Origin: Bacteroidia bacterium
Lineage (GTDB): Bacteria; Bacteroidota; Bacteroidia; Flavobacteriales; Flavobacteriaceae
Direction: 5' to 3'
Length of the DNA stretch: 64,000 nucleotides
Assembly (NCBI GenBank): GCA_030432635.1
Contig: JAUIMB010000010.1
Location: 1-64,000 of the forward strand
The notes beneath the pieces are model-generated. The model made no database searches. It worked only from the letters and a program-made list of their open reading frames with translations, and had not been told where the DNA came from. Below are positions 52,916 through 64,000 of the stretch, one piece after another; the first letter of the stretch is position 1, and the number at the start of each line of letters is the position of its first letter. A program made the translations under genes and the position numbers.

Positions 52916-54397
52916 CTAATTCACAGAAAAAGTGGTGCCATCCTTACCATCTTTCAATTGAATACCTTTGGCAGCTAACTCATCACGTATTTTATCGGAT
53001 AAAGCAAAATCTTTATTGGCTCTTGCTTCCTGACGCAATTTGATAAGCAACTCTACTGCACCCGATAATTTATCGGTTCCAGAATCAGAACTTACTTGGT
53101 CTTCCAATCCCAATACGTCAAATGTAAAATCATGCATGGTTGTTTTGAGCAATGCTATATCAGTTTTGGTGAGCGTGGCAGTACCAGTTTTAACTTGATT
53201 AATTTGTTTGGAAGCTTCGAATAAATGCGCAATTAATATTGGTGAATTAAAGTCGTCATTCATGGCATCATAACAGAGTTGTCTCCATTTTTGGACATCA
53301 AATGTAGATGTGTCTCCGGCTTCTAGTTCATCAAGCAGATGAATGGCATCCATTAAACGGTGGAATCCTTTCTCGCTGGCTAAGAGTCCGTCATCAGTTA
53401 AGTCAAGCACACTGCGATAGGAAGATTGTGCATTAAAGAAGCGGATAACGCTTGGTGCATAAGCCTTACTGAAAAATGAGTTGTTGCCTGATAATAATTC
53501 GGCAGGATTGACCGTATTACCAGTTGATTTTGACATACGTTGCCCATTGAGGTGCAGCATATTGGCATGCATCCAATAATTTACTGGTGATTGGTTTTTT
53601 GATGCTTGGCTTTGGGCTATTTCACATTCGTGATGCGGAAACTTTAGATCCATACCACCACCATGAATGTCAAAATTATCGCCAAGATATTTTGTGCTCA
53701 TCGCAGTACATTCTAAGTGCCATCCAGGAAATCCGTCACTCCAAGGTGATGGCCATCTCATGATGTGTTGTGGTTCGGCACGTTTCCACAAAGCAAAATC
53801 CTGAGGGTTCTTTTTGTCACTTTGACCGTCAAGCGCTCTGGTGTTATGTATGAGTTCTTCGAGCTTACGCTTGCTTAAAATTCCGTATTCATAACTTTCA
53901 TTGAACTTATGGACGTCAAAATACACCGAACCATTGACAACATAAGCATACCCATTATCAATAATTGATTTTATCAGTTCAATTTGCTCGATGATATGCC
54001 CTGTGGCTGTGGGTTCGATACTAGGAGGAAGGAAGTTAAATGTATTTAGTATGTTATGAAAGTCTACAGTGTAGCGTTGTACCACTTCCATAGGCTCAAT
54101 TTGTTCTAAACGCGCTTTCTTGGTGATTTTATCCTCACCTACATCAGCATCATTTTCAAGATGTCCAGCATCGGTTATATTTCTTACGTATCTAACCTTA
54201 TATCCTAAATGTTTCAGGTAGCGGAAAACCATATCGAACGACATAAAGGTTCTTACGTTTCCCAAGTGAACATTACTATATACCGTTGGTCCGCAAACAT
54301 ACATGCCTACGTAACCAGGTTCAATAGGTTTGAAAACTTCTTTTTTTCCGCTTAAAGTGTTGTAAATCTGGATGTTTTGCGTTTCGTAAAAAGGCAT
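52916..54397 (-). CDS. cysS: Cysteine--tRNA ligase
   Basis: Charges tRNA-Cys. In the 493-residue class I synthetase, zinc Cys and the HIGH-equivalent are in [19 protein letters not shown], the zinc ligands continue in [10 protein letters not shown] and [10 protein letters not shown], and the KMSKS-equivalent is [11 protein letters not shown] helical anticodon-recognition C terminus follows. The length and motifs are normal. Confidence 0.97.
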
Positions 54398-54476
54398 ATG
54401 ATTAGGCGTTAAATATCAGAATTTGTAAACTGATATGTAAATCTAAGGCTTTAATTTCTTCGGAAAAAATCTACGC

Positions 54477-55154
54477 TTAAAAAGATGTGTCGAGATTGAT
54501 GTAATCCAGGAATTCACGTTTGGTTTCCTTGTTTTTGAATTGCCCTCCAAATTCGGAAGTTACAGTACTACTCTCTATATCTTTAATACCTCTGGAATTA
54601 ACGCATAAATGTTTGGCATCTATAACGCAAGCGACGTCTTCGGTATTTAAAACCTCTTGCAGTTCTTTAACGATTTGAATTGTTAATCGTTCTTGTACTT
54701 GGGGACGCTTTGCAAAATAATCAACGATACGATTCATTTTTGAAAGCCCTACAACTGTTCCGTTGGAAATATATGCTACATGGGCTTTTCCAACAATAGG
54801 TAGTAAGTGGTGTTCGCAAGTCGAGTACAAGGTGATGTTTTTCTCGACTAACATTTCTCCGTACTTATATTTGTTTTCGAAAGTTGATGCACTTGGTTTT
54901 TTCTTTGGGTCAAGACCGCCAAATAGCTCATTGACAAACATTTTTGCAACTCGGTTTGGTGTCCCTTTAAGGCTGTCATCATTTAAATCAAGACCTAAAG
55001 TTTCCATAATATGCCTAATATCATCTTTAATGATGTCTACCTTTTCATTATTGCTCAATTTAAAAGCATCATGTCTTAAAGGAGTTTCGGCTGATGTTCC
55101 GATATGATCGTCTCCGAAGGCGTCTATATTGTGCGTGTCTTTATCTAACTTCAT
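54477..55154 (-). CDS. folE: GTP cyclohydrolase I
   Basis: Converts GTP to dihydroneopterin triphosphate, the first step of folate synthesis. The 225-residue protein has zinc ligands in TLYSTCEHHLLP and HLCVNSRGI, and SKMNRIVDYFAKRPQVQERL at the active site. The first 40 or so residues form a variable extension. A -7 box lies at 55224-55231. It precedes cysS by 79 bases on the same strand. Confidence 0.96.
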   Translation of the reverse strand: MKLDKDTHNIDAFGDDHIGTSAETPLRHDAFKLSNNEKVDIIKDDIRHIMETLGLDLNDDSLKGTPNRVAKMFVNELFGGLDPKKKPSASTFENKYKYGEMLVEKNITLYSTCEHHLLPIVGKAHVAYISNGTVVGLSKMNRIVDYFAKRPQVQERLTIQIVKELQEVLNTEDVACVIDAKHLCVNSRGIKDIESSTVTSEFGGQFKNKETKREFLDYINLDTSF

Positions 55155-55887: not shown

Positions 55888-58800
55888 ATGAAGAAAGCAT
55901 TACTCTTAATATTCACCTTAGTAGCAGTTAGCATGTACTCACAAGAAGTTATGATGCAAGAAGGACAGGTCGATACTTGTACTGGAACATTTACAGATTC
56001 TGGAGGTGCTGGAGGCAACTATGGCAGCAACGAGAACTTTACATTGACCATTTGCCCAGACGTTCCTGGAAATATGGTGCAGTTAAACTTTACTCAATTT
56101 AGTACTCAGTTGGGTGTAGATACCATGACTATTTTCAATGGTCCTGACACTATGGCAACACAGCTTGGCGGTAACTATGATGGAGCGAATAGCCCTGGAT
56201 TTGTAACCGCTACTCCAGCAATAAACCCATCGGGATGTTTAACTATTGTATTTACATCCGATGGAGCAGGAACCACCACAGGATGGTCTGCAGATATAGC
56301 TTGTAGTGAACCTTGCCAAACAATTGTAGCAGAAATCGATAGTACAATTCCAGCTATAAGTGCCGATGAGTCAATAAAAGTATGTCAAGGAGAAGAGATT
56401 AGCTTTACGGGAACAGCCACTTTTTCTAGTGATCCGACTGGAGCAACTTATGCTTGGGATTTTGGAGATAACACAACAGCAGATGGTCAAACAGTTACAC
56501 ATTCGTATGATACTGCAGGTGTTTATTTGGTTAATTTAGTAGTGACAGATGATAATACAACTGATGACCCAGATGGATGTTCCAGTTCAAATATTATAAA
56601 TCAAATTGTTCAAGTATCTACCGAACCAGACTTTTCTATGACTCAGGCAGCTGATGATTCGCTTTGTTTTGGCGAAACAACTACAATAGAAGGTGTTGCT
56701 ACAGCTACCGAATTTATATTTGATTGTACACCAGCAACAGGACAGGAAACAAGCCTTCCAGATGGGAATGGTGTGAGTTATACTTCTGGAACTATTGTTG
56801 AAAACTGCTATGCTGATACAGAGGTTATTGTTGATGGAGACCAAATTGCTGAAGTTTGTCTTAATATCGAGCATTCTTATTCTGGGGATTTGGATATATT
56901 TTTAGAAAGCCCGAATGGCGTTCAGGTGCAATTGTTTGCTCAAGCAGGAGGAGGTATTTATTTTGGAGGAGCAGATAATAATGACAACGGAGTACCTGGA
57001 GTAGGAGCCGATTATTGTTTTTCAAATGCTGGTACTATTTTATTAGAAGATGCAAATACTATTACAGCAGGTTCTAACCCACCAAACAATTCATGGGAGC
57101 CAGGGACTTATTTGCCGATTGGCAATTTTGATGATTTCATCGGAAGTCCAATTAATGGAGATTGGACAATCATCATTACAGATAATATTCCAATTGACGA
57201 TGGAACCATATTCTTCTGGAGTATAGATTTTGATCCTGCTTTGCAGCCACCTCTTTTATCATTCACGCCTGTTATTGAATCTGAAGCATGGGACCCTGAT
57301 CCAACCATTACAGATGTTACGGGCAATACCATTACCGTAGCACCTCCTACAGCAGGAACCTATTGTTATACGTATCGAGTAGTTGATGATTTTGGTTGCG
57401 AATATACAGAAGAAGTGTGTATTACGATGGAAGAGGAAATTACGGCAGATGTGGCATCTGTAGTAAACCCTATATGCCAAGGTGATGATGCAGAATTTTC
57501 AATAACCGCTACTCCTAATTCCACTATAAGCTATACACTTAATGGAGGCGCAGTACAAACCGAGGTTATAGATGCGACAGGTACCTGGACTTTTACTGTA
57601 GCATCAGCAATGGTAGATCAAACATTTAATCTAATTGATGTTACTTTAGGTGACTGTACAGTTACACTTAATGATATCGAAACCATAATTGTCGGTCAGG
57701 TATTCGACACGTCTTTTACGCTTACCGCTACATGTGATGGAGCTACTGCGACAGTTTTAGGTGATGTAGGAGGTGTATTTGCTTTTGCTGATCCTCAACC
57801 AACCGATGGTGCGATGATTGATTCTGCTACAGGAACCATCACTAATGGAACTTCTGGTGCGACTTATACAGTGGTTTATGAATTTGTTAGTTCATGTACT
57901 CCTGGTGATTCTGAATCGGTAACCGTTTTGCCTTCTGCTGATTCAAGTTTTACTTTGACACCAACATGTGACGGAGCAACTGCTAGTGTCACTGGTGATG
58001 CTGGAGGTACTTTTGCATTCAATCCATTGCCTGCGGATGGTGCTGTTATCGATATGACCACAGGTGCAATAACAAACGCTGTATCCAATGTTACTTATAC
58101 AGTCGAATATTTAGTTCCTGGTGCATGCTCATCTGTGACTACTGAGACTGTGACTGTACTTCCTGCTGAAGATGCCAGTTTTACGTTAACTGCTACATGT
58201 GAAGGTGCTACAGCTGTTATCACTGGAGATATTGGTGGAAGTTTTGCTTTTAACCCTTTGCCAATGGATGGTGCTACGATTGATGGAGCTACAGGTTTGG
58301 TTACAGGAGTTTCTGCAACAACATATACAGTGGAGTATACAACTTCTGGACCTTGTCCAGAAACTTCTACCGAAACAGTAACCGTATTGCCATCTGAAGA
58401 TGCTTCTTTTTCATATACATCAAATTGTTCAGGTGCTGTTGCCACTATTATTGGTAATGTTGGTGGTACATTTATATTCAATCCTGTTCCAACAGATGGA
58501 GCAGTTATTGATGCAGCTACAGGAGAAATTACAAATGGTACTGCAGGAACGACTTATACTGTTGAATATACTACGTCTGGAAGTTGTGCTGAATCATCAA
58601 CGCAAACGGTAACCGTATTCATAGAAGATGATTCGAGTTTTTCCTTGACTGCTACATGTGATGGTGCATTTGCTACTATTACCGGATTACCAGGAGGAAC
58701 TTTTGCATTCAATCCTGTTCCAACAGATGGCGCTATAATTGACCCTGCTACTGGTGCTGTTACTAATGCGCCATTCGATACTTCATACACAGTAGAATAT

Positions 58801-61800
58801 ACTACAAATGGAACATGTCCAACTACAAGTACGCAATCATTTACGGTCTTATCGCAGCCTGTTATCATTGATCCCACGCCATTGGAGGTTTGTGACGACG
58901 GTGTTCCGGATGGTTTGACTGCTATAGACCTCACGATAAAGAACGGTGAGGTCACTGGCGGCGACACGACCTATTCCGTGAGCTACCATTTGACCCAGTT
59001 TGATGCTGACAATGCCCTTGGCCCCTTGCCTATACCTTATACTAACACAGTTAACGGCCAGGTTGTATATGTAAGGGTCCAGGACATCGTCACAGGCTGT
59101 TACGCTACCACGACCCTTGAGCTAATAGTTGAGCAGGCACCAGTTGCTAACACTCCGGTTCCATTGGAGTACTGTGATGCCGACAGTGACGGTTTCGGAG
59201 TGTTTACGCTCAGTGACGCCGATAATGGGGTCACGGGAGGGGACCCGACCCTAACGGTGAGCTACCATGAGACGATGGCCGATGCGGACAATAACGTTAA
59301 CGCTCTCACGAGCCCTTACAATAATATAGTTGAGGGGCAGCAGACGGTCTACGTGCGTGTTGAGAGCGCTACGATAGCGACCGATTGCGCGACGGTAGTT
59401 GAGTTGGTCCTTATGGTCCACCAGACCCCACAGATAGAGGACCCTACGCCGTTGGAGGTATGTGACGATGTTTCCGCCGATGGTTTCGCGCAGTTCGACC
59501 TGACCAGCAAGGATGCTGAGATATTGGACGGTCTGGACCCTTTGCAGTATCTTGTGACCTATTATGAGGTGGAGGCCAATGCCGAGTCAGGCACGGGCCC
59601 GATTTTGGTGCCGACGGGCTATACCAATACCACGGCCTTCAACCAGACCCTTTGGGTACGTGTTGAGGACACTGTCAATGGCTGCCACAAGCTTACGACC
59701 CTGGACTTAGTGGTCAATGCGCTTCCCGTTCTGATACAGCCAGCTCCCTTGGAGCTATGTGACGACAACAACCCGGGCGATGAGGTAGAGGCCTTTACCC
59801 TTGAGGATGCCAATGCGGAGATGCTCGGCGGACAGACAGGGATCAGCTTTACCTATTATGAGACCCAGTTGGACGCGGACAGCGGTACCGATCCGATAGT
59901 GAGCCCATACATGAACACGAGCAATCCACAGACGGTATTCGTACGTGCCACAGATGATGTCACGGGCTGCTGGGTAAGCACCACGGCGACGATACTCCTG
60001 CGAGTGAACCCTATACCATCGCCTGCGGCACCGACCGATCTGGAGGTCTGTGACCTTGACAACGATGGTTTTGAGGAGTTCGACCTGGAGAGCAGGACCT
60101 TAGAGGTCATCAATGGGGAGCTGGACATTGCGATCACTTACCACGAGACGCAGAGTGATGCCGAGATGGGCCTTAATGCGCTTGCAAGCCCTTATACAAA
60201 CATAGTGATGGACGAGCAGTTGATCTATATCAGGGCAGAGAATACCGTTACGGGCTGTTACAATGCTCTGGAGACGCTTACCATCCGTGTGCTCCCGTCA
60301 CCGGTGGTCCCTGTGGAGATAGGGGACTACGTGGTCTGTGACACGGACAGTGACGGTTTTGCCCAGTTCGACCTGACCACCAAGGATGCTGAGGTCTTGG
60401 GGGGGCAAGACGCATCGGAGTTCATGTTGACCTATCACGTGAGCCAAGCCGATGCTGAATCGGGGAGCAACCCAATAGCGAACGTTACCAATTACACGAA
60501 TATAAATAATCCACAAACGATCTACGTACGTTTGGAGAGCGGGGTGAACGGCTGTGTCACCGCTACCGGTCTTTTTGAGATCCGAGTGGAGCTGCCACCG
60601 GTTGCGGTACAACCGACACCTTTGGAGTTCTGTGACGATGAGGTTGCGGATGAGGTCACCGTGTTTGACCTGACGGTCAAGGACTTGGAGATCACCGGCG
60701 GAGAGGCAAGTTGGAGCGTTTCCTATTATGAGACGGATGCCGATGCCCAATCAGGGACGGGCGCCGTTGATGCGACCTCCTATGGCAATACATCTGTGAA
60801 CGGGGCACCGGCTAACCCACAGACGCTCTACGTTGTTGTTACCGATACGGATACGGGGTGTGTCGACTATACGACCTTGACCATACGTGTACTGCCCAAC
60901 CCGACACCGAGCTTGGACCCGTCCGATCTGGAGCTGTGCGATGACATCAATCCAGGGGACATGGAGGAGGTGTTCGACCTGACGGAGAACGAGGTCTATA
61001 TCATCAATGGAGAGTCAGGTGTCACGGCGACCTACCATGAGACAGAGGAGGACGCTGAGTTAGGGGAGAACGCCATAGCCGATCCGACGGCATATGGCAA
61101 TACATCCACGCCGCAGACGATACATGTTCGAGTGACCAACGATGTCACGGGCTGTTACACTTTGGTGAGCTTCGATATAGTGGTCAACCCTTTGCCGGCT
61201 GTCATCCCTGTGACGGATTTTATTCTATGTGAGCTGGACACGGACGGGTTTGATGGGTTTGACCTGGAGCTCAAGGACGGAGAGATACTCAACGGTCAGG
61301 ACGCATCCCTCTTTACGGTTACCTACCATGCGACCCAGTCGGACGCCGATGACCTGATGAACCCATTGGTGAGTCCTTATACCAATACGAGCAATCCACA
61401 ACAGATATTCGTTGCGATCACCAATAACGTTACGGGCTGTTCGATCAGTACACCTAGCTTCAACATCGAGGTGCAGGAAGCTGCAGAGGCGAATTCGGGC
61501 ATGGAGCCCATAACCTATGTGATATGTGACGACGAGATGGACGATGACAATGACCTGTCCAATAACAGCGCACAGTTCGACCTTACGCCTGTCGAAGATA
61601 TAGCTGACCTGGATCCTCTCAGCGTCCAGGCCCAGGTACTTGATGGACAGGACCCGGCCAGCTACATCGTGAGCTACTATGAGACAGAGGAGGGTGCCGA
61701 ACAGGGTGTTGACCCATTGCCGTTCCTGTACGAGAACCTTACCAACCCACAGGTGATCTATGTCCGTGTTGACAACGACACTATGGTTGATGACGGTATG

Positions 61801-62613
61801 GGCAACATGGTGGACTCCTCGATATGTTATGCGGTGGCGGAGTTGACACTCCAAGTTGACCCATTGCCGGTATTCGATTTGGATGACAGTTATATCCTAT
61901 GTGTTGGCACCAATGGGACGGAGGTGCTCGGCGCACCGATATTGGACACGGGACTTGATGCTGCGTTCTATGGCTTTACATGGTCGCTCAATGGGGCTGA
62001 GATCCCGGGAGCAACGGGGAGCATTTATATGCCTACCGAGGGAGGGGCTTACACCGTTGTTGTCGAGGACCTTGCGACGGGATGCACCAGTGGGGACATT
62101 GCGGAGGTTATCGAGAGCGGCCCTCCAATGGTCACCGCAGTGGTCACTACGGAGGCCTTTGCTGAGACCCATGTGATCGAGGTCATCGTAGATGGTGATA
62201 TTTCTCAGTATGAGTACAGCCTGGATGGCGGTCCATGGCAGGACGAGCCGATTTTCACAGGTGTATCGATAGGCGAGCATGAGGTTACGGCCAGAGACAG
62301 GGATGGCTGTGGCCAGGCCAGTGATAAGGTCACGGTAATGGACTACCCGGCATTCTTCACGCCAAATGGCGATGGCTATAACGACACCTGGAACATTAGC
62401 TTGCCCGAAAGTGTAGGACTAAGCACAAAAATTTATATATTTGACCGGTACGGCAAGTTGCTCAAGCAGATCAGTCCATTGGGAGAGGGCTGGGACGGTA
62501 CCTATAACGGCACTGCGATGCCAACCAGTGATTACTGGTTCGTGGTGGAGTACAGTGAGCCGGCAACGTTGCAACAGAAAGAGTTTAAAGCCCATTTTAC
62601 CCTGAAAAGATAA
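55888..62613 (+). CDS. Giant secreted repeat protein with T9SS type B sorting domain
   Basis: A 2241-residue exported protein. It comprises signal peptide 1-18, a CUB-like domain (about 25-140, DTMTIFNGPD), a PKD domain (about 150-250, YAWDFGDNTT), a P-like domain (about 310-450, EHSYSGDLDIFLESPNG) and an Ig-like region. Five 77-residue repeats follow (607-991), then ten repeats of about 95-125 residues with the pattern PLEVCDD...DGF..FDLT...VSYHET..DAD...PYTNT..Q.VYVRV...TGC (992-1996). Two further Ig-like units lead to a gliding-motility-type C-terminal domain (2152-2241, AFFTPNGDGYND, FDRYGKLLKQ). It is probably an elongated surface adhesin. From about 58860 onward, GC content and codon use are strikingly higher than upstream and elsewhere in the window. 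Confidence 0.9.
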   Translation: MKKALLLIFTLVAVSMYSQEVMMQEGQVDTCTGTFTDSGGAGGNYGSNENFTLTICPDVPGNMVQLNFTQFSTQLGVDTMTIFNGPDTMATQLGGNYDGANSPGFVTATPAINPSGCLTIVFTSDGAGTTTGWSADIACSEPCQTIVAEIDSTIPAISADESIKVCQGEEISFTGTATFSSDPTGATYAWDFGDNTTADGQTVTHSYDTAGVYLVNLVVTDDNTTDDPDGCSSSNIINQIVQVSTEPDFSMTQAADDSLCFGETTTIEGVATATEFIFDCTPATGQETSLPDGNGVSYTSGTIVENCYADTEVIVDGDQIAEVCLNIEHSYSGDLDIFLESPNGVQVQLFAQAGGGIYFGGADNNDNGVPGVGADYCFSNAGTILLEDANTITAGSNPPNNSWEPGTYLPIGNFDDFIGSPINGDWTIIITDNIPIDDGTIFFWSIDFDPALQPPLLSFTPVIESEAWDPDPTITDVTGNTITVAPPTAGTYCYTYRVVDDFGCEYTEEVCITMEEEITADVASVVNPICQGDDAEFSITATPNSTISYTLNGGAVQTEVIDATGTWTFTVASAMVDQTFNLIDVTLGDCTVTLNDIETIIVGQVFDTSFTLTATCDGATATVLGDVGGVFAFADPQPTDGAMIDSATGTITNGTSGATYTVVYEFVSSCTPGDSESVTVLPSADSSFTLTPTCDGATASVTGDAGGTFAFNPLPADGAVIDMTTGAITNAVSNVTYTVEYLVPGACSSVTTETVTVLPAEDASFTLTATCEGATAVITGDIGGSFAFNPLPMDGATIDGATGLVTGVSATTYTVEYTTSGPCPETSTETVTVLPSEDASFSYTSNCSGAVATIIGNVGGTFIFNPVPTDGAVIDAATGEITNGTAGTTYTVEYTTSGSCAESSTQTVTVFIEDDSSFSLTATCDGAFATITGLPGGTFAFNPVPTDGAIIDPATGAVTNAPFDTSYTVEYTTNGTCPTTSTQSFTVLSQPVIIDPTPLEVCDDGVPDGLTAIDLTIKNGEVTGGDTTYSVSYHLTQFDADNALGPLPIPYTNTVNGQVVYVRVQDIVTGCYATTTLELIVEQAPVANTPVPLEYCDADSDGFGVFTLSDADNGVTGGDPTLTVSYHETMADADNNVNALTSPYNNIVEGQQTVYVRVESATIATDCATVVELVLMVHQTPQIEDPTPLEVCDDVSADGFAQFDLTSKDAEILDGLDPLQYLVTYYEVEANAESGTGPILVPTGYTNTTAFNQTLWVRVEDTVNGCHKLTTLDLVVNALPVLIQPAPLELCDDNNPGDEVEAFTLEDANAEMLGGQTGISFTYYETQLDADSGTDPIVSPYMNTSNPQTVFVRATDDVTGCWVSTTATILLRVNPIPSPAAPTDLEVCDLDNDGFEEFDLESRTLEVINGELDIAITYHETQSDAEMGLNALASPYTNIVMDEQLIYIRAENTVTGCYNALETLTIRVLPSPVVPVEIGDYVVCDTDSDGFAQFDLTTKDAEVLGGQDASEFMLTYHVSQADAESGSNPIANVTNYTNINNPQTIYVRLESGVNGCVTATGLFEIRVELPPVAVQPTPLEFCDDEVADEVTVFDLTVKDLEITGGEASWSVSYYETDADAQSGTGAVDATSYGNTSVNGAPANPQTLYVVVTDTDTGCVDYTTLTIRVLPNPTPSLDPSDLELCDDINPGDMEEVFDLTENEVYIINGESGVTATYHETEEDAELGENAIADPTAYGNTSTPQTIHVRVTNDVTGCYTLVSFDIVVNPLPAVIPVTDFILCELDTDGFDGFDLELKDGEILNGQDASLFTVTYHATQSDADDLMNPLVSPYTNTSNPQQIFVAITNNVTGCSISTPSFNIEVQEAAEANSGMEPITYVICDDEMDDDNDLSNNSAQFDLTPVEDIADLDPLSVQAQVLDGQDPASYIVSYYETEEGAEQGVDPLPFLYENLTNPQVIYVRVDNDTMVDDGMGNMVDSSICYAVAELTLQVDPLPVFDLDDSYILCVGTNGTEVLGAPILDTGLDAAFYGFTWSLNGAEIPGATGSIYMPTEGGAYTVVVEDLATGCTSGDIAEVIESGPPMVTAVVTTEAFAETHVIEVIVDGDISQYEYSLDGGPWQDEPIFTGVSIGEHEVTARDRDGCGQASDKVTVMDYPAFFTPNGDGYNDTWNISLPESVGLSTKIYIFDRYGKLLKQISPLGEGWDGTYNGTAMPTSDYWFVVEYSEPATLQQKEFKAHFTLKR
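57706..58860 (+). repeat. Coding repeat array A: five 77-residue units
   Basis: Units begin at about 57706, 57939, 58171, 58399 and 58630 (period about 231 bases). Each reads (D/A)SFTLTATC(D/E)GA, GG.FAFNP.P.DGA.ID, TG..TN and YTVEYTT.G.C, and ends TVTVL. Each unit has two cysteines that could form a disulphide. Base composition here is as low in GC as the rest of the window (22 of 60 bases G or C at 58441-58500). Confidence 0.85.
58861..61875 (+). repeat. Coding repeat array B: ten units of about 95-125 residues
   Basis: Ten units share PLE(V/L)CDD, FDLT, a (V/T)(S/T)Y(H/Y)ET..DA(D/E) block, YTNT, Q(T/L).(Y/F)VR and (V/N)TGC, each with two conserved cysteines. GC content is high (33 of 60 at 59161-59220, 37 of 60 at 60541-60600), with many GAC, GAG, ACG and GGC codons. 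The units differ enough in sequence that this is not a recent amplification of one unit. Confidence 0.88.
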
Positions 62614-62634: not shown

Positions 62635-62667
62635 AAAAAGCTACGCATTTTTTATGCGTAGCTTTTT
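62635..62667 (+). terminator. Intrinsic terminator after the giant protein gene
   Basis: A perfect 13-bp stem (aaaaagctacgca/tgcgtagcttttt) with a 7-base loop, 21 bases after the stop codon. Confidence 0.92.
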
Positions 62668-62842: not shown

Positions 62843-64000
62843 TTATATGCTAAATCCAAGGGTCAAAGTTACATTAGAATTCTTGGTGTTAACTACTGCA
62901 GAGTCAGTAAGTCCAACAGAGAATAGTTGATTATTGACTTCTCTTTCAGATTGATCATAAGTCAAATCAAGTTTAAAATTCCCAAAGTTGTACCCTAGAC
63001 CTATGGAATAACCGGAAAGATCACCGTAGAATGAATCATCTTCATAGGGACTTTCTTCAAAACGATAACCGCCTCTGAAACTAAATTGTTTGAACTTGTA
63101 TTCACCACCAATGCGATAAGAATTAGTAATTTTGAAAACGTTGTCAATTATATCGTTTTGAGAAGAGAAAAACGCATCTGATGTGGGTCTGAACTTAATG
63201 TTTTTAAAATTTCTTCTTGAATAATCAAAGCTTAAAAGGCCTCTGTCTCCAAAAACATAAGCTAAACTTCCTGTTAATTTTCCTGGTGATTGTAAACTAT
63301 ATTCAGGGAAGACATTAACTATGTTTGGGGTAATATATACTGGAAAATCACCGTCGATATCTTCAACTGAGGTTGCAATGCCTTGAGTGGTTTCTTCAAA
63401 AATTGTAAACCACGTTGGTGAGTCGTAAGTAAAACCAGCTCTGAGCTCATTTGTTACTTTAAATATTGCACCTAGCTGAAAAGAAAAACCATTGCCAGAG
63501 GTAAGCAAACTATTGTCGAAGTTAACATTCCTTACAACTGATCCTTCGTTTGAATTTGATTCAGTAAAATAAGTAAATCGTTCATAATTTATGAAGTGTG
63601 CATTTAGGTTAATACCAAGATAAAGTTTGTCTTCATATTCTGCAGCTGCATTGAAAGCAATCTTACCATTATACCCAGTTGCAGAATACCTGTAAGATTG
63701 GTTGAAGGTACCAGGTGCAATATTGGAAAAGTATAATGTATTCTCATCATTGTTTTCTTCTGGTTCCAATATGAATGATTCGTAACCAAGAAAAGCCTGT
63801 TGATTGGCATAGCCATAGAAGGAACCTATTTCTTGATAGGCTTGTTCTAAAGTTTCTCCTGGAAAAGCAGATATCTCATCTAGCCTTCTTCCTTGAGCAT
63901 AAGCGAGAAAATAATTGTCTATAGATTGAGTATTAACACCAGAGGCCGACCAATCATCTCGATAGTTAGACGTTTTATCATAAGCGATACTCAATGCGAA
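62843..64000 (-). CDS. OmpP1/FadL family outer-membrane transporter (N terminus outside window)
   Basis: The frame is open to the window edge, so about 386 C-terminal residues are present and the signal peptide and N-terminal hatch are missing. The sequence is a run of amphipathic beta strands with FadL landmarks: KIAFNAAAEYEDKLYLGINL, ELRAGFTYDSPTWF, KLTGSLAYVFGDRGLLSFDY, RIGGEYKFKQFSFRGGYRF and YSIGLGYNFGNFKLDLTY. It ends in an aromatic-terminated strand NVTLTLGFSI. FadL-type porins take up long-chain fatty acids or other hydrophobic compounds; the substrate here is unknown. Confidence 0.88.
   Translation of the reverse strand, partial: FALSIAYDKTSNYRDDWSASGVNTQSIDNYFLAYAQGRRLDEISAFPGETLEQAYQEIGSFYGYANQQAFLGYESFILEPEENNDENTLYFSNIAPGTFNQSYRYSATGYNGKIAFNAAAEYEDKLYLGINLNAHFINYERFTYFTESNSNEGSVVRNVNFDNSLLTSGNGFSFQLGAIFKVTNELRAGFTYDSPTWFTIFEETTQGIATSVEDIDGDFPVYITPNIVNVFPEYSLQSPGKLTGSLAYVFGDRGLLSFDYSRRNFKNIKFRPTSDAFFSSQNDIIDNVFKITNSYRIGGEYKFKQFSFRGGYRFEESPYEDDSFYGDLSGYSIGLGYNFGNFKLDLTYDQSEREVNNQLFSVGLTDSAVVNTKNSNVTLTLGFSI

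Follow-up and report, generated by a model that had tools for sequence, protein, structure and literature searches.

A GC-rich tail shared by two predicted SprB-like adhesin genes of a flavobacterial genome: probable GC-biased gene conversion

Introduction

Gene conversion between paralogues is a known idea, and so is GC-biased conversion, which is disputed for bacteria. Concerted evolution by gene conversion in bacteria is reportedly the subject of a review by Santoyo and Romero (2005); the genes described here share with such cases the intragenomic homogenisation of paralogues and differ from them in a strong local shift of composition.

In bacteria, a rise in GC content with recombination that does not depend on codon selection was reported (Lassalle et al. 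2015, PMC4450053). GC-favouring recombination is described as widespread in that source and as not observed in another (PMC8153448); the dispute is also taken up in PMC6867656, and for M. tuberculosis conversion frequency was reported not to be associated with GC content (PMC13061034). The present genes resemble the case of Lassalle et al. in that GC goes up with recombination, codon selection aside; unlike the across-gene correlation reported there, a 2- to 4-fold GC3 step is found here inside single genes (strong cases), at or near the edge of the homogenised tract, and diverged-copy and apparently single-copy controls are at hand. The arms of primate X-chromosome palindromes (PMC8981503) offer a second likeness, i.e., near-identical copies kept by conversion that are GC-rich against single-copy flanks; those are reported as large structures of a meiotic eukaryote, whereas dispersed bacterial gene tails are dealt with here.

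The closest described protein system is SprB/SprF of F. johnsoniae. PorP/SprF-like carriers, thought to be partner-specific, are needed by type B sorting domains, and SprF binding has been linked to the C-terminal 368 residues of SprB (PMC9143113); a Cys-x-Cys motif joins SprF to GldK (PMC12635249), and three orphan type B proteins of F. johnsoniae are reported to share one carrier (PMC12618676). Locus A of the present genome is like this system as reported in PMC9143113 (type B sorting domain, repeats, adjacent PorP/SprF gene); unlike it, a second adhesin gene with a near-identical tail is present, for which no report was found. On gene conversion, concerted evolution or high GC in connection with flavobacterial adhesins or type IX secretion, literature searches returned nothing to the point (PMC5714932 appears to be a genome comparison of Flavobacterium spartansii, off the subject), and no bacterial case of GC-biased concerted evolution was found, as judged by titles and abstract openings.

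Experimental

Own genome and genus: The window, i.e., the whole stretch of 64,000 nucleotides that was analysed, is from the genome of a marine member of the Flavobacteriaceae, the genus of which is probably Psychroserpens. Tail DNA of the giant gene of the window was searched against the contigs of its own genome; own-genome repeats of at least 85% identity were compared for GC3 inside and outside the repeat, in the stretches examined. From the genus set, four single-contig genomes (G007, G016, G009 and G008) and the window's own were compared. A first tail tree was built of 50 proteins, one of which was a wrong ORF (L060 row, Mangrovimonas), and was rebuilt with 49 rows.

Family comparison: The family search gave a match at E ≤ 1e-150 in 29 of 149 genomes, and the tails of 23 were taken besides those of the own genome; a second sample of 20 named genomes gave a match in 17. 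The GC excess (31 genomes) was calculated as the observed tail GC3 minus that expected from the codon use of the head, each genome being represented by the mean over its genes with a head of at least 250 codons. Left out of the comparison of 18 with 13 genomes (see Results) were: G143 (66% identity in its best pair, one member of which is a short contig); G027, G043, G063, G070, G078, G079 and G081 (contig end within the tail or the gene); G045 (contig end within the head); G111 (75 nt between the end of the gene and that of the contig; excess 0.456; second tail fragment seen); the matches in G001, G092, G095, G126 and G134; and, from the named set, G188 (head missing, the contigs starting within the array), G189 (gene continues past the contig end; excess 0.455), G177 (L042; excess 0.058), G181 (L078; −0.021), G186 (L089; −0.003) and G182 (match coordinates the same as those of G089).

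Amino-acid-changing positions: Aligned codons with differing amino acids were collected, and positions 1 and 2 were scored for GC against AT in the high-GC member.

Results

Window gene and its composition step. The initial annotation had described an intact giant gene with an abrupt switch of composition, and both claims are borne out: one open frame of 2241 codons is present (Table 1), and GC3 passes from 0.21 (codons 1–985) to 0.63 (codons 986–2241), the maximum-likelihood changepoint being located at 58,843 (log-likelihood gain 205 nats). GC per 300 nt rises from about 0.40 to 0.50–0.57 and is 0.23 just past the stop codon. Amino-acid make-up is no explanation, as a tail GC3 of 0.20 is expected from the codon use of the head vs 0.63 observed; among Glu codons, GAG accounts for 85 of 90 in the tail vs 10 of 46 in the head. 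The DNA repeat shared with a second gene (see below) starts at 58,858, 15 nt from the changepoint. The switch had been placed at the boundary of arrays A and B; the two do coincide in the window gene, but the step lies at the edge of the DNA repeat, and in the twin gene (contig C15) three such array-B units of near-native composition come before it, so that it is found within the array. The high-GC half is, as had been proposed, a discrete module with a history of its own and a sharp edge. Of the head domains named earlier, PKD and P-domain, together with CHU_C, were found by Pfam; CUB was not, at E ≤ 0.001. Misassembly at 58,860 had been considered as a possible cause; it is unlikely, because the order cysS, folE, small ORF, giant gene, FadL-like gene is conserved in 4/4 complete genus genomes examined. 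The composition step is the border of a DNA repeat rather than that of a foreign insert.

Table 1: Features of the window gene, its neighbours and the carrier gene of the second locus (positions are those of the window unless a contig is given).
Feature	Coordinates	Strand	Evidence or remark
Giant surface-protein gene (locus B, orphan member of the pair), 2241 aa	55888..62613	+	TIGR04131, 113.9 bits (cut-off 35)
Head (PKD, P-domain, array A), GC3 about 0.2	55888..58857	+	
N-terminus of head, hydrophobic, signal-peptide-like			judged by eye
PKD domain	aa 155–226		Pfam
P-domain	aa 322–355		Pfam
Array A, diverged repeats, 65–68% nt matches, GC3 about 0.2	57700..58857 (approximate limits)	+	
Homogenised GC-rich tail, GC3 0.63	58858..62613	+	common to second giant gene (contigs C15, C37)
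Array B, about 10 units of about 95 aa, Cys-Asp/Glu motif	58858..62337	+	nine motif matches; no Pfam or NCBIfam match
Type IX secretion type B C-terminal sorting domain	62338..62610	+	TIGR04131 and CHU_C
Terminator-like hairpin 3' of orphan gene, 9-nt arms, then T run	62640..62662	+	by eye
FadL/OMPP1-like outer-membrane protein gene	62843..63994	−	syntenic in relatives; weak matches only; no match to PorP/SprF models
cysS and folE, conserved left neighbours	52916..55154	−	names by eye; used for synteny check
PorP/SprF gene after stop codon of twin	C37:124–1080 (L129:115–1125)		234 bits (Pfam), 189 bits (NCBIfam)

Second giant gene and carrier. Two pieces of the tail were recovered elsewhere in the genome: contig C15 (86,788 bases; C15:86453–86788) corresponds to window 58858–59193 with 8 differences in 336 nt (98%), and bases 1–110 of contig C37 correspond to window 62504–62613 with 0 differences up to the stop codon, after which the sequences depart. 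Since C15 ends and C37 starts inside the tail, a second giant gene exists. The middle of its tail is absent from the assembly, presumably collapsed by the assembler, and the near-identity is read over 446 nt only. The head of the twin is unlike that of the window gene and consists of CUB, PKD and choice-of-anchor L, followed by array-B units of near-native composition. The product of the SprF-like gene of C37 carries a Cys-x-Cys pair at its C-terminus, as SprF is described to do (PMC12635249). Six PorP/SprF genes were found in the genome; one adjoins the adhesin pair, after the locus A copy, and no carrier gene was found at the window locus, none of the six being on the window's contig. A neighbouring carrier gene is usual for SprB, though not a requirement for all type B substrates. 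The sorting domain at the C-terminus of the window gene exceeds the curated cut-off (Table 1), and both genes are predicted to encode SprB-like type IX adhesins.

Elsewhere in the same genome, five close-set genes ending in type B sorting domains were observed at C2:37800–52030; their GC3 is mostly 0.24–0.44, the tandem-repeat gene excepted, and contig C2 holds none of the six PorP/SprF genes found.

Two loci and concerted evolution in the genus. The tail or a relative is encoded in 22 of 23 genomes of the genus set (E ≤ 1e-60). Each of the four single-contig genomes carries two tails, 98.4–99.8% identical over 3.7–4.4 kb (G007 99.5%, G016 99.8%, G009 98.4%, G008 99.2%) and 0.4 to 1.9 Mb apart (record coordinates); the heads differ, and the homology of the tails stops at the stop codon or within about 25 nt. 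Both loci, the window-type one (cysS/folE side) and the sprF-linked one, are conserved in all four. GC3 outside/inside the tail (mean of both copies): G007 – 0.14/0.25; G016 – 0.21/0.29; G009 – 0.18/0.67; G008 – 0.26/0.76.

In the tail protein tree of 50 proteins, the two tails of each complete Psychroserpens genome were sisters; those of Winogradskyella G170, G171 and G174 clustered by locus, not by genome. Full-length alignment of the window head was obtained with the locus-B heads of G016, G009 and G008; with the locus-B head of G007, as with the locus-A heads, only about 240–270 residues could be aligned. All four locus-A heads aligned with the C15 head along its full length. A tree of the N-terminal 260 residues, 7 of whose 13 inner forks were unresolved, placed the window gene with the locus-B genes of G016, G009 and G008 (support 98). 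Locus B of G007 is the exception to heads following loci. The tails thus go by genome and the heads mostly by locus, i.e., concerted evolution, and the tail copies are alike within a genome and diverged between genomes, as gene conversion produces. Maintenance of the near-identity by repeated gene conversion between the loci is strongly supported by the sequences. In fragmented genomes of the family, the tail was seen as a lone contig of 3–4 kb (L041, L043, L044, L045, L046, L051 and L056), so that the annotations of these genomes probably lack, or contain only in broken form, one adhesin gene or more.

Edges of the step. As a mean of 11 pairs, GC3 was 0.25 over the last 50 codons ahead of the homology edge; past the edge it was 0.41 over the first 50 codons and about 0.46 deeper in the tail. 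Of 30 genes (those of the window and C15 among them), 11 had their best GC3 changepoint no more than 12 codons from the homology edge and 27 had it no more than 179 codons away; the other three were off by 462, 690 and 1519 codons, the last belonging to a very weak step. Two to three array units precede the homology edge in five sprF-linked genes, and the step was observed past that edge, by 5, 8 and 7 codons in the strong-step genes C15, L172 and L174 and by 51 and 53 codons in the weak-step genes L168 and L171; there, the step does not follow the domain edge of the array.

GC excess and homogenisation across the family. In 18 genomes with near-identical copies (best pair at least 93%; the window's genome included) the excess was positive throughout (18/18; 0.03–0.50, median 0.14); in 13 genomes whose best pair does not exceed 91.4% or which yielded one tail, it was −0.015 to 0.058 (median 0.03). 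The difference (one-sided Mann–Whitney, p = 1.2e-5) is between genomes that are not independent, 5 of the 18 being from the window's genus and 7 of the 13 from Winogradskyella; when the values of Psychroserpens, Winogradskyella and Lacinutrix were pooled into one mean per genus, 13 vs 7 remained (p = 5e-5), and without G172, G173, G175 and G176, 18 vs 9 (p = 8e-5). One tail was found in G120, G040, G044, G105 and G089, and when the threshold was relaxed to E ≤ 1e-25, none of the five had a second tail of similar identity among the matches listed. G120 alone is a single contig; a perfectly collapsed second copy is possible in the other four.

Unhomogenised genes of seven Winogradskyella genomes gave an excess of −0.004 to 0.058, and the intact unpaired tails of the Winogradskyella tail clade have GC3 of 0.16–0.28. 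G144 (L180–L183), in the same clade, holds four tails as two near-identical pairs (97.2% and 98.1%), one per branch, with GC3 of 0.63 and 0.53 and an excess of 0.32. The contrast is clearest in this clade. Elsewhere in the tree, the tail of the window (GC3 0.63) stands beside those of P. mesophilus (0.31) and G007 (0.25) with full support, that of G009 (0.67) in a small clade with P. damuponensis (0.27), and that of Subsaxibacter (0.72) as sister to Aquaticitalea (0.26). With a cut at 0.5, at least 8 changes between the high and the low GC state are needed on the rebuilt 49-row tree, and the rise in GC recurred in several lineages. GC is raised in the recombining tract and not in its flanks, with very variable strength.

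Further 26 genes with a head of at least 250 codons (a subset of 78 loci; copy number mostly unsettled) were run. Nine run off a contig end (excess −0.008 to 0.455; the lowest value is that of L209, cut inside the tail); of the other 17, 13 gave −0.043 to 0.071, three gave 0.11–0.14 (L059, L114 and L118, copy number unsettled) and one gave 0.456 (G111). Extreme tail GC3 values were noted in L211 (G079; 0.94), L212 (G111; 0.90, its upstream part 0.45), L199 (G143; 0.89) and L207 (G078; 0.87); three of these four tails are whole short contigs.

Several results speak against biased conversion, among them the values of L209, L059, L114 and L118 just given. In the minority differences among three copies, change from GC to AT is not clearly in excess (29:13, p = 0.12; 136:135; 7:9). 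The strength of the effect does not track identity: the tails of G016 are 99.8% identical and have GC3 of only 0.29, and the excess in G073 (0.042) and G184 (0.030) is within the control range. Lone tail contigs of Psychroserpens, presumably collapsed copies, have GC3 of only 0.26–0.35. Some contigs of Winogradskyella G172 and G176 start with small tail fragments, which show that these genomes have further, hidden tails; whole-contig tails of G172, G175 and G176 have GC3 of 0.26–0.38 vs 0.22–0.31 in the intact gene of the same genome. In G177 (excess 0.058), two contigs begin with fragments 88% identical to the end of its tail.

Other repeats of the own genome. GC3 was raised inside repeats in a gene of C2 (0.59 vs 0.33) and in one of C1 (0.39 vs 0.22); a repeat of contig C12 (L134:12109–12720) is a counterexample (0.25 vs 0.33). 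The C2 case (C2:49048–52026, L131:15049–18027) is a single-copy type B surface gene, and its island is built of tandem repeats with 222-nt spacing in six copies (the reference, four 89–94% identical to it and one 68% identical). Homogenised repeats of this genome thus carry another GC island, independent of the first.

Discussion

Two loci with one tail, ongoing homogenisation, and a rise in GC that is tied to the homogenised stretch and independent of codon preference can be read from the sequences themselves. The best reading, and a likely one, is GC-biased gene conversion between two SprB-like type IX adhesins, by which the tail is homogenised, perhaps for compatibility with SprF. At locus A an SprB-like gene stands before sprF, and at locus B is the orphan gene of the window; the two genes combine different heads with one tail, made up of array B and the type B sorting domain. 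The tail would be exchanged between the loci by non-reciprocal gene conversion; mismatches in the heteroduplex would be repaired more often to G or C, and the exchanged stretch would drift up in GC at silent and amino-acid-changing positions, the remainder of the gene staying behind. Identity of the tails may persist since both proteins would use the SprF of locus A as a carrier, copying of the tail keeping the sorting domain of the orphan fitted to it.

The bias need not lie in mismatch repair. GC-biased mutation linked to recombination (error-prone repair synthesis) would also be confined to the recombining tract and blind to the coding frame, and the minority differences of the three-copy genomes, being balanced, agree with it to much the same degree. 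Nothing decisive speaks against such mutation; we consider it unlikely, bacterial mutation being reported as generally AT-biased (PMC2936535).

Direct selection for GC-rich DNA in the shared tail, e.g., as an aid to strand pairing that keeps the loci exchangeable, would account for the tie to the shared tract and for the shift at all codon positions. It is improbable to a like degree: G016 and G073 maintain pairs of 99.7–99.8% identity at a GC content that is scarcely elevated, and exchange can therefore do without high GC.

Synonymous-codon selection confined to the tail (for the sake of translation speed, mRNA structure or expression), one of the two explanations offered in the initial annotation, agrees with a shift that is largest at third positions. 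The amino-acid-changing positions are shifted too, and this makes it very unlikely. At positions 1 and 2, GC:AT was: window vs G007 – 161:60; window vs P. mesophilus – 152:78; G009 vs P. damuponensis – 94:59; Subsaxibacter vs Aquaticitalea – 146:77; G144 pairs vs Winogradskyella – 136:97 to 163:92; low-vs-low controls – 68:85, 37:36 and 73:70. The GC excess was present in 12/12 high-vs-low comparisons, only some of which are independent; exchanges of GC-coded vs AT-coded amino acids agreed in 11/12, one G144 comparison being reversed (4:9). Codon frequencies of EF-Tu from the same genome (GC3 0.27) correlated with those of the head (rho 0.68) and not with those of the tail (rho −0.01). In the five sprF-linked genes the step trails the homology edge, with 2–3 units of the same array before that edge, and there is little step in diverged or apparently single-copy relatives. 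The effect is independent of codon selection and visible at amino-acid-changing positions.

The other explanation offered there, an imported cassette, would have the GC-rich tail taken from a GC-rich bacterium, fused to a native head and then copied to the second locus. The sharp step with its module boundary and the very GC-rich tails in other genera (GC3 0.72 to 0.94) are in its favour; it is nevertheless highly improbable, since the tail protein tree puts the tail inside its own genus, with the AT-rich tails of that genus (0.25 and 0.31) as its nearest relatives at full support, relatives carry the same gene at the same site with near-native GC, and high GC arose repeatedly on the tail tree, with mild steps of the same sign. 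That array B is GC-rich by nature was rejected, own-genome relatives on C2, C20 and C31 having GC3 of about 0.18–0.44 per 100 codons (the tandem-repeat gene of C2 is a different repeat).

If GC-biased conversion is the cause, identical tails would drift from GC3 of about 0.2 to 0.6–0.9 in the lineages most affected; codon preference would be overridden and amino acids shifted, and the rest of the same adhesin gene would stay AT-rich. The gene pairs provide a within-gene contrast that is replicated across lineages and accompanied by diverged-copy controls, and the question of GC bias in bacteria thereby becomes directly testable. A local GC anomaly of this kind can pass for horizontal transfer. 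The pairs also suggest how an orphan adhesin keeps matching its carrier; we lean slightly towards the view that the twin adhesins of Flavobacteriaceae are natural reporters of strong GC-biased conversion, the exchange being maintained by one SprF that would serve both.
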